Origin: Beijerinckiaceae bacterium
Lineage (GTDB): Bacteria > Pseudomonadota > Alphaproteobacteria > Rhizobiales > Beijerinckiaceae
Direction of reading: 5' to 3'
DNA length: 43,570 nt
NCBI GenBank assembly: GCA_025459195.1
Contig: JALORF010000006.1
Span: forward strand, 1 to 43,570
Shown: positions 5,786 to 29,282 of the stretch, in pieces
Position numbering within the stretch: position 1 is the first letter of the stretch
Layout of the letters: every line of letters starts with the position of its first letter
Position numbers and translations under genes: made by a program
The notes under the pieces: generated by a model
Told to the model about the DNA's origin: nothing
The model's input: only the letters and a program-made list of their open reading frames with translations
Databases searched by the model: none

Positions 5786-5954
5786 CGGACGCCTCCCGCC
5801 CCTGGTCACGCCGGGGCTTGTCTGGGTTGCTGCTTCTCTAGCCGTTCAACGCCTGCCCGTCCAGTTTCGCAGCCAGCGGCGAAATGTGCGGTGCGTCGCG
5901 GCTTGCAGCGTGATAAGCAGCGGCCAGCTTTCCAATCGCCAGGGATCACCCGCC

Positions 5955-6203
5955 ATGAACGCCCCGAACCGCCTGCTCGATGAAGTCGCCCGTCTGGTCA
6001 CCGATGCTGCCGGCGCGGCGCAGGGCGTGCGCCGCGAGGTCGAGACCGTGGTCAAGACCCAGATGCAGCGCATCCTTGCCGACATGGACGTCGTCACCCG
6101 TGAGGAATTCGAGGCCGTGCGCGAGATGGCGATCATGGCCCGCGAGGACAACGAGCGCCTGGCCGCGAGGATCGCCGCACTGGAAGGGGCCGGCAAGGCC
6201 TGA
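5955..6203 (+). CDS. ubiK: Accessory factor UbiK family (BMFP/DUF526) protein
   Basis: MNAPNRLLDEVARLVTDAAGAAQGVRREVETVVKTQMQRILADMDVVTREEFEAVREMAIMAREDNERLAARIAALE; C-terminal coiled coil with the VTREEFEAVREMA signature. Confidence 0.88.
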   Translation: MNAPNRLLDEVARLVTDAAGAAQGVRREVETVVKTQMQRILADMDVVTREEFEAVREMAIMAREDNERLAARIAALEGAGKA

Positions 6204-6257
6204 CATCGGCGCACGATCATCCCGCCGCGGTGCCAGACCGGCCTGCGCGAACACGCC

Positions 6258-8021
6258 TTACCGGCCAAGGCCCCAGAACGAGCGCTTCGCTGGCGGGGCC
6301 GCATCCGGCTCCGGTCCGGGATCGTCGGGCGCGCGCGGCAATCCGTCCGCCAGCAGCACGGGACCATGGGCCGGCACCGGCGCGCTGGCCCCGGCTTCGG
6401 CTGCCTCTGGCGGCACGTGAGGCTCTGGTGCAGCAGCGCCTGACAGCCCGGCGTGTTGCTCAGGAACCGTCTGGCCTGTCGCCGGCTGGATCATGCCAGC
6501 CCCCTCTCCTGCCGCAACCACCACCGGTGCGACCGTTCGTGCCACCATCCGCATGTCGGCATCATCGGCAGTGCGGTCGGGGCCGGAAACGGCCTCGGCA
6601 GAAGGCGGAGCCAATGGAGAAGCAGAAGGCGCAGCCAAGGGGGAAGCGGCCGGTGGAGCCGTGGCGGCCGGCACAGGCGGGGCGGAAGCTGGTTCCGACA
6701 ACGGACCGAAATCCTCGAAGGCAGGCGCCGTGCTGCCCAGCACCGGCGGCGGCAAAGTCCAGGCAAAGGCGTCAAGCCGGCCCGACACCGGCGAGACCGG
6801 CAACCATGTCTCCGAGACGATGCCATCCGCCACCCAGGCATTGTCACGCGGGGCGCGCACCGACCGGGTCAGCCACTCGCGGGCACGCCCGGCAGAGCCA
6901 TGCTCGCCATCCTCGATCCGCGCCATCAGCAGGCAGGCGCGCTGGGTTGGCACGGCAGCCAGCAGCGGCAGGAGAGCCTTGCGCGCCAGCGGATAGTCCC
7001 GCGCCGCAATCGCGGCATCCGTGACCGCAAAGACACTTTCAGGATCGGTCGGCTTGAGCTTCATCAGGGCCTGGGCCTTGTCGAGCTTGTCCTGCAGGCT
7101 GTCGCCCGTGCGCAGGTTGACATAGGCAGCGGCGAGATCCGGATGCGGCTGCTCGCGCCAGGCCGCTTCAAGCACCCTCGCCGCCTTGCGCAACTCACCC
7201 TTGGCCGAGAGCATGCGGCCCGCCAGCGCCGCAGCCGGCGTCAGGCCGGGTGCGAGCTTCAGGGCTTCGAGCGCAGCCGAGAGTGCGTCAGCCGGGCTTG
7301 CCTCCTGCTTGGCCAGCGCTTCCGCCGCGAGCAGGACCGCGCGATGGCGGCGCGATTCAGTCTTGTCGCTCAGCCGCAAGGCGGCACGGCGCTCCACGGC
7401 GGTGCGGGCCTGCGCCCAGTCGCCGGCCGTGGAATGGAATTCCAGCAGTGCATCATTGGCCCAGGCCAGTGACGGCGACAGCCGGACGGCCTCGTCGGCG
7501 AAGGCGCGGGCGGCGATCTGGTCGCCCCTGCGGCGGGCTTCGACGAACAGGCCGCGCAAGCCCAGCACGCGCGTGGTCGGCTCATCGAGCATGTCCTTGA
7601 AGGCGGCTTCGGCAGCGGGCTTGTCGCCGGACAACTGCGCCGACTGCGCGCTCAGCAGCAGCGACAGCGGCTCATCCGGGATCAGCTTGCGGGCATCGGA
7701 GGCATGCCGGCGCGCTGCCGATGGATCGCCCGCGCCAATCGCGACCATGCCGCGCGAGATGGCCTCATAGCCACGCGAGCGCTTGCGGGCGCGGCTGGCA
7801 AACGAGAACGCTGTCGGCAGGCCGAGCATGAAGCGCAGCAGCGACCACAGCATCATGCCGGCCAGAACCAGCACGGCCACGCCAATGGCCGCCATCGCCA
7901 CCGTGGTCTCGATGGTCATGCCGCCCCAGACGATCGAGACCTCGCCGGGCCGTTCCGCCAGCCAGACCGCGCCGAAGGCCAGCGCGCTGGCGACTGCGAT
8001 GAAGACAAGAATCCGCAACAT
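6258..8021 (-). CDS. hemY: HemY-type heme biosynthesis TPR protein
   Basis: MLRILVFIAVASALAFGAVWLAERPGEVSIVWGGMTIET plus TPR region ending in ARDNAWVADGIVSETWLPVSPVSGRLDAF; located next to hemD/hemC. Confidence 0.88.
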   Translation of the reverse strand: MLRILVFIAVASALAFGAVWLAERPGEVSIVWGGMTIETTVAMAAIGVAVLVLAGMMLWSLLRFMLGLPTAFSFASRARKRSRGYEAISRGMVAIGAGDPSAARRHASDARKLIPDEPLSLLLSAQSAQLSGDKPAAEAAFKDMLDEPTTRVLGLRGLFVEARRRGDQIAARAFADEAVRLSPSLAWANDALLEFHSTAGDWAQARTAVERRAALRLSDKTESRRHRAVLLAAEALAKQEASPADALSAALEALKLAPGLTPAAALAGRMLSAKGELRKAARVLEAAWREQPHPDLAAAYVNLRTGDSLQDKLDKAQALMKLKPTDPESVFAVTDAAIAARDYPLARKALLPLLAAVPTQRACLLMARIEDGEHGSAGRAREWLTRSVRAPRDNAWVADGIVSETWLPVSPVSGRLDAFAWTLPPPVLGSTAPAFEDFGPLSEPASAPPVPAATAPPAASPLAAPSASPLAPPSAEAVSGPDRTADDADMRMVARTVAPVVVAAGEGAGMIQPATGQTVPEQHAGLSGAAAPEPHVPPEAAEAGASAPVPAHGPVLLADGLPRAPDDPGPEPDAAPPAKRSFWGLGR

Positions 8022-25191: not shown

Positions 25192-25992
25192 TCAGACCTG
25201 GCGCGCCACCATCATCTTCTTGATTTCGGCGATGGCCTTGGCCGGATTGAGGCCCTTGGGGCAGGCATTGGCGCAATTCATGATCGTGTGGCAGCGATAC
25301 AGCCGGAACGGGTCCTCGAGATTGTCGAGCCGGTCCCCGGTGGCCTCATCACGGCTGTCGATCAGCCAGCGATAGGCCTGGAGCAGCACGGCCGGGCCCA
25401 GATAGCGGTCGCCATTCCACCAGTAGCTCGGGCATGAGGTCGAGCAGCAGGCACACAGGATGCATTCATAGAGCCCGTCGAGCTTCTCGCGGTCCTCGCG
25501 CGACTGCTTCCATTCCTTTTCAGGGCGCGGCGTCGTGGTCTTGAGCCAGGGCTCGATCGAGGCATGCTGGGCATAAAAGCGCGTCAGGTCCGGCACCAGA
25601 TCCTTGATCACCGGCATGTGTGGCAGGGGATAGATCGCGACCTTGGCCGCCTTGCCATCCTTGTGGCTGCCGCACTCGTCGATACCGGTGGTGCAGGCCA
25701 GTCCGTTCTTGCCATCCATGTTCATGGCGCATGAACCGCAGATACCCTCACGGCAGGAGCGGCGGAAGGTCAGCGTCGGGTCGACCTTGTTCTTGATCCA
25801 GATCAGCGCATCCAGCACCATCGGCCCGCAATCGTCGCGGTCCACCGTGTAGGTGTCGACGCGCGGATTGGCCTTGTTGTCCGGATCATAGCGATAGACG
25901 CGGAACTCGGTGGTGTTGGTCGCCCCCGCCGGCGCAGGATGGCGCTGGCCCTCTGTGACGCGGGAGTTCTTGGGAAGGTTGAATTCGGCCAT
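25192..25992 (-). CDS. sdhB: Succinate dehydrogenase iron-sulfur subunit
   Basis: [80 protein letters not shown]. Confidence 0.97.
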
Positions 25993-25993
25993 T

Positions 25994-26293
25994 TCAGTCG
26001 TCGTCCTGATCTACCAAGGCGTCCATCAGATTGTTGTTTTCTTCGATGCGCAGCATGCGGATATCGCGCACGGAAGGCGTAAACCAAGGGTAACGGCGCG
26101 CCATTCTCTGGACGATCCGAACACAACGAACAGCGTCGATGGTATCATCGCCAAAATAGCCGCTGCCCTGAACCCACTCGAAGCCACGCGTTGTCAGATA
26201 GTTTCTGACATCCGTGTAAGCGTTGTTCCACGACGTGCTCGGGTAGGTTTGCTTCAACATGTCCGTATCAAAATCAAACATGATCGCGTACAC
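25994..26293 (-). CDS. vapD: VapD-family endoribonuclease (toxin-like)
   Basis: GTG start preceded by GGGAGGGAGAAGAAGC: (V/M)[46 protein letters not shown]...[20 protein letters not shown]; YAIxFD, WxxAYTD, GFEWxQGS and WFxxSVRDIRxxRIE are VapD hallmarks. The frame also extends upstream to ATG 26377. Confidence 0.86.
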
Positions 26294-26391
26294 GCTTCTT
26301 CTCCCTCCCCGATTGTGACCAATCCGGCTGCCTGTGCCAAAAGCACCCTGCGTGCGCTCGCCGAAACCGGTCGCCATCGTGCGTCAGGTCC

Positions 26392-28221
26392 TCAATACAC
26401 CCGCGCTTTCGGCGCGATGTATTCGATCTCGTTCGACATCGTGTAGGTGTGGACCGGCCGGTAATCGATGCTGACCGAGCGCTTCGTGTCATCGATCCAG
26501 GCCAGCGTGTGCTTCATCCAGGTCTTGTCGTCGCGCTCCGAGAAGTCCTCGCGGGCGTGTGCGCCACGGCTTTCGGTGCGGTTCTGGGCGCTGTCCATGG
26601 TCACCACGGCCTGGGCGATCAGGTTGTCGAATTCCAGCGTTTCGATCAGGTCGGTGTTCCAGACCAGCGAACGGTCCTTGACCTGCACATCGGGCAGTCC
26701 GCCCCAGATCGCGTGGATCGCGTCGTGGCCCTCGTCGAGCACCTCGCCGGTGCGGAACACGGCGCAGTTGTTCTGCATCGTGGCCTGCATGCGGGCACGC
26801 AGCACCGCAGTCGGCGTGCCGCCATTGGCGTGCTGGTACCGGTTGAGGCGCGAGAGCGCGAGCGCGCTCTGGGCTTCGGTGATCTCGGGCTGCTTCTCGC
26901 CGGGGGTGACGAGTTCGGCACAGCGCAGGCCGGCGGCGCGCCCGAACACCACTAGGTCGATCAGCGAATTGGAGCCAAGCCGGTTGGCGCCATGCACCGA
27001 GACGCAGGCCGCCTCGCCGATCGCCATCAGGCCGGGAACGACCGTGTCGGGATCGCCGTTCTTCTTGGTCAGCACCTCGCCGTGATAGTTCGTCGGGATG
27101 CCGCCCATGTTGTAGTGCACGGTCGGCAGCACGGGGATCGGCTCGCGGGTCACATCCACACCAGCGAAGATGCGGGCGCTTTCCGAAATGCCCGGCAGGC
27201 GCTCGGCCAGGATCTTCGGGTCGAGATGGTCCAGATGCAGGTAGATGTGGTCCTTGTTCTTGCCGACCCCGCGCCCGTCACGGATTTCCATGGTCATGGC
27301 GCGCGACACCACATCGCGTGAGGCCAGATCCTTGGCCGATGGCGCATAGCGTTCCATGAAGCGCTCGCCCTCGGAGTTGGTGAGGTATCCGCCCTCGCCG
27401 CGCGAGCCTTCGGTGATCAGGCAGCCCGAGCCGTAGATGCCGGTGGGGTGGAACTGCACGAATTCCATGTCCTGCAGCGGCAGGCCGGCGCGCAGCGCCA
27501 TGGCATTGCCGTCACCCGTGCAGGTATGGGCCGAGGTGGCGGAGAAATAGGCCCGGCCATAGCCGCCTGTCGCCAGGATGGTCTGGCTCGACCGGAAACG
27601 GTGCAACGTGCCGTCATCCATCTTCAGCGCGACCACGCCGAGGCAGCGGCCATCCTCGCTCATCATCAGGTCGATGGCGAAATACTCGATGAAGAACTCG
27701 GTCTGGGCGCGCAGGGCCTGCCCGTAGAGCGTGTGCAGGATGGCGTGGCCGGTGCGGTCGGCAGCGGCGCAGGTGCGCTGGGCAATGCCCTTGCCATACT
27801 GCGTGGTCATGCCGCCAAACGGGCGCTGGTAGATCTTGCCGGCCTCGGTGCGCGAGAACGGCACGCCCCAGTGCTCCAGCTCATAGACGGCCGCCGGCGC
27901 GTTGCGCACCAGATACTCGATGGCATCCTGGTCGCCGAGCCAGTCCGAGCCCTTGACCGTGTCATACATGTGGAAGCGCCAGTCATCCTCGCCCATGTTG
28001 CCGAGCGCGGCCGAGATGCCGCCCTGGGCCGCCACCGTGTGCGAACGCGTCGGGAACACCTTGGAGATGCAGGCGGTCTTCAGCCCGGCCTGGGCGCAGC
28101 CGACCGTGGCCCGCAAGCCGGCCCCGCCAGCCCCCACCACCACCACGTCGAAGGTGTGGTCGGTGATGTCGTAGCCGTAGGTCTTGCCTTGCGGTGCGGC
28201 TGGCTTGTCTGCTGTGGCCAT
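26392..28221 (-). CDS. sdhA: Succinate dehydrogenase flavoprotein subunit
   Basis: [89 protein letters not shown]. Confidence 0.98.
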
Positions 28222-28225
28222 GGTC

Positions 28226-28624
28226 TCAGCCTCCAAAGGCGATCTTCAGGATTGCGAACACGGATGCGGCCCCCACCACCACCGTGAAGAACGTGTTGGC
28301 CATCACCGCCAGAACCTTCGCGCCTTCCCCGTGCACGTAGTCCTCGATGATGGTCTGCATGCCGAGGCGCATGTGGATGAGCCCCGAGATCACGAACAAG
28401 AGCATCAAAAGCGCCACGACGGGATGCGACAGAGTGGCCATGGCAGCCGCATAGGGCTTGCCGACCAGCGACAGCACGATCACCACAAAGGCGGCGGCCA
28501 GCAGCACGTTGGCCACGGCCGTGACGCGCTGGAGCCAGAAATGCTGGGTGCCGGAGCGGGCTGAGCCCAGCCCGCGGACATGGCCCAGCGGAGTGCGCAT
28601 CGACGAATGGGATGACATCGGCAA
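28226..28624 (-). CDS. sdhD: Succinate dehydrogenase hydrophobic membrane anchor subunit
   Basis: 3-TM ORF between sdhC and sdh[11 protein letters not shown]...[17 protein letters not shown]. Confidence 0.93.
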
Positions 28625-28630
28625 GATCCT

Positions 28631-29017
28631 TCAGCGCACGGCGTAAGCTGCGATCCAGATCAGGATCGTCAGCGGCACGGACACGAACAGCGTCATCCGG
28701 GCCATGTTCATGCGGGTCTGCGCCTCATAGCCATGGCCCAGATCCCAGACGAAGTGGCGCAAACCGCCGACCATGTGGTGCATCAGCGCAAAGGTGTAGC
28801 CAAACAGCACAAGCCGCCCGATCCACGAACCGGCCAGCCACTGGGCAGTCTCGAAGGAGGCAGCGCCAGATGCGGCCGCCACCAGCCAGAGCGCCAGCAG
28901 CAACGTGCCGGCATACAGCGCAGCGCCCGTGGCACGGTGGAAGATCGACATCGCCATGGTCCATGACCAGCGATAGATTTGCAGATGCGGCGACAGTGGC
29001 CGACTTTGATCCGCCAT
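28631..29017 (-). CDS. sdhC: Succinate dehydrogenase cytochrome b556 subunit
   Basis: RPLSPHLQIYRWSWTMAMSIFHRATG and HHMVGGLRHFVWD; start at MADQSRP preferred over an upstream TTG. Confidence 0.94.
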   Translation of the reverse strand: MADQSRPLSPHLQIYRWSWTMAMSIFHRATGAALYAGTLLLALWLVAAASGAASFETAQWLAGSWIGRLVLFGYTFALMHHMVGGLRHFVWDLGHGYEAQTRMNMARMTLFVSVPLTILIWIAAYAVR

Positions 29018-29282
29018 GTTGGGACCCCCGGGCTGATCCTTGGGCTGGACCAGTTCAAATTTCAAATTTCAGAGGCTCGTCATAGCGAATGGAACCCCGC
29101 GCTGCAATGCGACATGAGTACGAGGTGTTACAGATGTCGAAGGTTGTCATTGCACGCTGCGCAAGGTCAGGAAGGTTCGTGGATGCCCGCGCCGGAAGGC
29201 TTTCAAGGCCTCGTTCGCCTGGCCGGCCTTGCTTCGCACAAGGACCTGCGGTGCGACCGGACCAGTAGCCGGACAGGGCACT

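Follow-up and report, generated by a model that had tools for sequence, protein, structure and literature searches.

A stand-alone gene of the VapD nuclease family lies between sdhA and sdhB in the succinate dehydrogenase operon of a Beijerinckiaceae bacterium. We consider it likely that this gene was acquired horizontally and is carried as cargo in a slot between sdhA and sdhB that is permissive across the order. The gene belongs to a known family, and of the two findings the recurrent slot deserves more attention. In the window, i.e. the whole stretch of 43,570 nucleotides that was analysed, the minus strand carries in this order sdhC (28631-29065), sdhD (28226-28624), sdhA (26392-28236), the vapD-family gene (25994-26377) and sdhB (25192-25992), all five being co-directional. 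The flanking genes were assigned by TIGR01816 (sdhA, 950 bits), NF004616 and TIGR00384 (sdhB) and by TIGR02968 and TIGR02970, which cover sdhD and sdhC. Direct reading placed the sdhA stop at 26392 and the sdhB ATG at 25992, with one base separating the vapD stop from the sdhB start in the junction TGA-A-ATG (25990-25996, minus strand); all these positions were those of the original prediction. Judged from the sequence, this junction is likely to couple the translation of sdhB to that of vapD. Across the loci in which both genes were seen, the vapD stop and the sdhB start are 1-9 nt apart or overlap by 1 nt in 11 of 14. The 17-nt spacer with the sdhA stop, TGAGGACCTGACGCACG (26378-26394, minus strand), stands directly before vapD as the corresponding spacer of empty sites stands before sdhB, and is likely the ribosome-binding region of vapD. 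A promoter scan returned one weak site, inside vapD, which equals chance expectation; the only terminator-like site was found in sdhD, and none across the sdhA-vapD-sdhB interval. The co-directional position of the genes supports as likely the co-transcription and coupling with sdhB that had been proposed.

Assignment to the VapD family was based on profile, sequence and fold searches. The NCBIfam VapD model NF041506 matched residues 30-120 over nearly its whole length (E 7.6e-20, 71 bits versus a curated equivalog cut-off of 100), and the best matches in a sequence search of the PDB were VapD chains (3ui3, E 4.9e-13). In an AlphaFold2 model the core reached a pLDDT of about 80-93, and a fold search with this predicted core yielded nine PDB matches at E<=0.001, all of them VapD chains (3ui3, 9kan, 6zn8, 6zi1, 6zi0). 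D35 and S72 of the window protein align with the conserved catalytic Asp and Ser. Cas2 identity was rejected because both PF09827 (21.3 bits, cut-off 23.8) and TIGR01573 (13.3 bits, cut-off 24.5) scored under cut-off, so that in the comparison of VapD and Cas2 profiles the ORF falls in VapD while the Cas2 models match weakly. Directly beside the ORF lie sdhA and sdhB and no cas gene, a search of an anti-phage library gave weak Cas2 matches only, and a PHROGs search gave no match. The VapD identity originally proposed was borne out by PDB sequence matches, fold and catalytic residues and, at a score under the curated cut-off, by profile; the window copy retains both residues, and most relatives do not carry the gene. 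By sequence and structural model, we classify the ORF as a VapD-family protein of a divergent subfamily and not as an equivalog of the Haemophilus influenzae and Helicobacter pylori proteins.

The upstream ATG at 26377 yields a protein of 127 amino acids, while the GTG start at 26293 used in the original prediction gives 99 codons. The 28-codon N-terminal extension (26294-26377, minus strand) contains GSRIGHNRG and its motif RIGHNRG (ATTGGTCACAAT at 26312-26323) is conserved in relatives: [ILV]GHN was found at the equivalent place in 15 of the 17 sdh-linked copies described below, and GDN in the other two. Since this conserved motif lies upstream of the GTG, the 127-codon form is favoured; the ATG, and not the GTG, is probably the real start, and the earlier length of 99 codons is probably wrong. 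In locus L007, a strong Shine-Dalgarno sequence (AAGGAGGTG) is located just upstream of an MPSIGHN start. The tail was modelled with low confidence (pLDDT <50 for residues 1-25). IGHN-type N-terminal motifs also occur in L059, L063, L065 and L066, including alphaproteobacterial copies outside sdh, but none was found among those plasmid and viral relatives that were inspected. The idea that IGHN tags many N-termini in this genome was discarded, as only the vapD occurrence among 12 pattern matches was judged near a plausible gene start, and a full-text literature search for IGHN together with Alphaproteobacteria yielded no paper that looked relevant from its title or abstract.

Profile searches of overlapping samples from the order (398 genomes), class (385) and phylum (399), plus a named genome collection, recovered a distinct VapD subfamily. 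At 17 alphaproteobacterial loci (the window, L061, L050, L049, L005, L006, L007, L048, which is the same as L008, L051-L058 and L064) its gene is located directly after sdhA or within the sdhA-sdhB interval; no sdhB was seen on the available stretch of L005, L007 and L056, and other open frames share the interval with vapD in L052, L054, L055, L057 and L058. These loci comprise 17 of the 21 full-length alphaproteobacterial members examined. The remaining four are found beside smc (L063), between tpiA and secG (L065) and in accessory surroundings (L059 and L060), all neighbours being named from their translations. At L065 (G702), the gene occupies about 5909-6310, co-directional between the apparent tpiA and secG, and thus another housekeeping junction. 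Any VapD match was restricted to 20 of the 398 genomes of the order, about 13 of which belong to this subfamily. For VapDs scoring 65 bits or less in the order and class samples, no sdh gene was present on the fetched stretches. A search for the subfamily outside the Alphaproteobacteria in the 399 phylum genomes gave two new matches (L217 and L218), again with no sdh gene on the fetched stretch, and the nearest non-alphaproteobacterial relatives come from small plasmids, a prophage record and viral contigs. D35 and S72 are both retained in 14 of the 17 sdh-linked copies, the window included. A predicted catalytic residue was lost from a still open frame in L049 (D35 to G), L057 (S72 to G) and L064 (S72 to R); given these three copies, nuclease activity may not be selected for everywhere.

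The junction between sdhA and sdhB is a general cargo slot, permissive across the order. We compared 86 sdhB loci from the order, consisting of the 26 best search matches and a further 60 chosen manually among the matches listed, and hence not a random sample. In 13 of them no adjacent sdhA was present, 34 had a gap of under 120 nt and 39 a gap of 120 nt or more. Junction content other than vapD was seen at 38 of 73 order-level loci. Counted as matches to representative genes, so that one locus can hold more than one, the cargo of the 39 wide-gap loci comprised FkbM methyltransferases (11), DUF3052-type proteins (9), cysteine-rich, secreted-looking proteins (6), a 73-aa coiled coil (4), hydrolases (2), another methyltransferase (2), a PIN-domain protein (1) and vapD (1), with eight unassigned. 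Among 30 congeneric loci, seven were occupied: two by vapD, one by a PIN gene preceded by a small ORF (L096) and four by other small ORFs. In the order sample, the gene most often found in the slot encodes an FkbM-type methyltransferase of roughly 280-300 aa, of which one representative was checked against Pfam (L157, L158, L159, L161, L163, L175, L191, L196, L199, L200 and L212). A DUF3052-like protein of about 145 aa, whose representative scores just under the Pfam cut-off, recurs in L178, L190, L194, L197, L210, L192 and L055, in the last case together with vapD, the only locus where both were found. In L096 (G020, same genus) and in L165 (G371, another family) the slot is taken by a PIN-domain gene of toxin type that has a small ORF upstream. 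Twelve sampled genomes, mainly from genus g20, have no sdhA within 1.5 kb upstream of sdhB (L131-L141 and L146), so the operon is split there or contains a large insertion.

Because the junction takes many unrelated genes, the position of vapD alone is no argument for a role in SDH, and synteny with sdh is no evidence for a role in succinate oxidation. That most alphaproteobacterial members of the subfamily sit at this one of many possible junctions reflects either transfer together with the sdh flanks or selection for the expression context. Conceivably, vapD could be a one-gene mobile cargo that entered repeatedly and independently and was kept for its sdh-tied expression and its coupling to sdhB. 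To this proposal we would give a low chance; it would make VapD a nuclease whose output follows the respiratory state and which has no antitoxin beside it.

Comparison of the sdhA-sdhB spacing in related genomes showed that the site is cleanly empty in G030, G821 and G829, the closest relatives, whose SdhB proteins are 98, 95 and 94% identical to that of the window. In these genomes the gap, including the sdhA stop, is 16-17 nt; in the window, a spacer of this kind is followed by precisely the vapD gene and one additional base. In G030 (L071), which does not carry vapD, TGAGGACCTGACAGACA directly precedes sdhB. A homologous import tract beside the insertion was ruled against, as flank identity to G030 showed no dip. 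In the window, vapD and sdhB both begin with ATGGC, and precise loss via this repeat at the two start codons would give the same empty site as if the gene had never been present. Divergence of vapD was uncorrelated with that of SdhA (Mantel r 0.09, p 0.21). The AU test rejected as sisters the congeneric pairs window and L061 (p 1.5e-43) and window and L050 (p 0.014) as well as the same-family pair L054 and L056 (p 0.0025). Upon addition of plasmid and viral copies, the sdh-linked set was rejected as a single clade (p 0.02); these vapD trees are built on about 93 residues and contain few strongly supported branches. The simplest reading of such incongruence is that vapD arrived at the junction more than once. 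Taken together, the sequence comparisons indicate that vapD moves horizontally yet keeps reappearing between sdhA and sdhB. Between all known vapD copies, synonymous sites are saturated or close to it (dS of at least 1.3, or saturated) while dN is 0.13-0.28, which points to purifying selection and to donors that are not near any sampled copy.

These data also make it improbable that vapD is an ancestral, vertically inherited sdh gene of the order, encoding a functional SDH-associated nuclease that was lost in most lineages. The same position in many families would fit such an origin, and the vapD and sdhA groupings agree in part (L006 near L053, L048 near L051). However, the two divergences are not correlated, congeners and a same-family pair were rejected as sisters, VapD is confined to few genomes of the order, and plasmid and viral copies fall within the same clade.

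Low GC content had been taken as a sign of horizontal acquisition. The hand-counted value of 53% agrees with the 52.7% computed for the last 300 nt of vapD, compared with 66.2% for sdhA and 62.5% for sdhB. At each of the 17 sdh-linked loci vapD is poorer in GC than sdhA, and VapD genes located elsewhere also tend to fall below the average of their own locus; low GC is therefore weaker evidence of recent transfer than it seemed and does not serve as proof. Horizontal acquisition itself is supported by the clean empty sites and the incongruent trees.

The original prediction had further suggested that vapD might act as a toxin whose loss is prevented by its place in the operon. Its alternative suggestion, that this place links the dose of the toxin to sdh expression, may hold. 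In such a toxin-antitoxin or addiction module, loss of the gene would disturb sdhB or kill the cell. Several VapDs are toxic when overproduced and are paired with VapX, VapY or VapW (PMC11980593), and the small ORF upstream of the PIN gene in the slot of L096 and L165 is possibly its antitoxin. In the window, vapD lies between sdhA and sdhB and has neither a small partner ORF nor an antitoxin gene adjacent to it, and a search of the genome for a second VapD or VapW homologue found none at E<=1. Roughly half of all VapD homologues occur without any specifically associated gene (PMC11980593). As the nearest relatives have intact empty sites, among them the congener with 98% identical SdhB, and as the slot is a general one, addiction is unsupported and we hold it to be distinctly improbable. 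Ribonuclease activity in vitro has been reported for the stand-alone VapD of H. pylori and for H. influenzae VapD, while VapDs from VapY and VapW pairs were toxic upon overproduction and induced the SOS response (PMC11980593). The window gene has no adjacent antitoxin and sits in an operon that is normally well expressed in respiring cells. By this reasoning, VapD of the window is probably weakly or conditionally active.

Very unlikely is a homing-like selfish gene, i.e. a VapD lineage that reaches the junction by targeted insertion of its own or of a partner. The high proportion of full-length alphaproteobacterial members at sdh (17 of 21), near gene-exact insertions where an empty site can be compared and a phylogeny independent of the host gene are what such a mechanism would produce. 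On the other hand, the slot takes many unrelated genes, so that permissiveness and homologous exchange via the sdhA and sdhB flanks suffice; neither inverted repeats nor a conserved target duplication were noticed by eye, and copies also occur elsewhere, by tpiA/secG and by smc. An assembly or binning chimera in the fragmented MAG, to be considered for an assembly of 253 contigs in which the window is one whole contig, can hardly be the explanation, as the same arrangement is present in near-complete genomes from other species (G414 and G178, two contigs each, and Rhizobium sp. CFBP 8762), the flanks match congeners on both sides and the boundaries are precise and gene-neutral.

The best reading of the sequence data is that vapD belongs to a plasmid- and phage-borne subfamily and is carried in the slot as co-expressed cargo under purifying selection. 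According to this model, vapD would be transcribed together with sdhCDAB and translated from the spacer that formerly preceded sdhB, while sdhB would be translated either after reinitiation at TGAAATG or with the aid of an internal Shine-Dalgarno sequence in the 3′ end of vapD. The protein, presumably dimeric by analogy with solved VapDs, would cut RNA or DNA, its activity being limited, for example, through the N-terminal IGHN tail or the oligomeric state. It might then serve in stress or mobile-element conflict rather than as an addiction toxin. If this is correct, a slot in a core respiratory operon repeatedly takes up genes that move horizontally, nuclease genes and toxin genes of the PIN type among them, and SDH apparently stays intact. 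It would offer a natural system for studying tolerance of stand-alone VapD and cargo expression from housekeeping operons, and for finding out the role of that half of the VapD family which is unpaired.

The main text of the 2025 VapD census makes no mention of sdh or succinate, and in the open-licence PMC literature we found no paper on VapD within sdh or on the sdhA-sdhB slot. Among known systems, Cas2 (PF09827) shares the ferredoxin-like fold and the weak profile match given above, but the window gene neighbours sdh, not cas, and is matched much better by VapD models. With the type II toxin-antitoxin systems VapXD, VapYD and VapWD (PMC11980593) it shares the toxin family, whereas an adjacent antitoxin is absent from the window. 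Closer are the characterized members of the VapD family (NF041506; H. pylori HP0315, 3ui3; H. influenzae, 6zn8/6zi0; Campylobacter jejuni, 9kan), which share fold, Asp (D35), Ser (S72) and domain length, and of which the H. pylori protein is likewise stand-alone. The window protein differs from them by its C-terminal RMLRIEENN(D/N)L in place of the RAFRxEQWSDFT type, its N-terminal IGHN extension, its embedding in sdh and its score of 71 bits against the cut-off of 100. VapDs encoded on plasmids (Aeromonas pTM18-2, Pseudomonas pZM1P1 and uncultured pM02_c2) are 56-59% identical to the window protein, share the RMLRIEE motif and, by annotation only, have no recognised antitoxin alongside, like the window gene; unlike it, they lack the IGHN extension, and the small plasmids that carry them have genes for replication or mobilisation.
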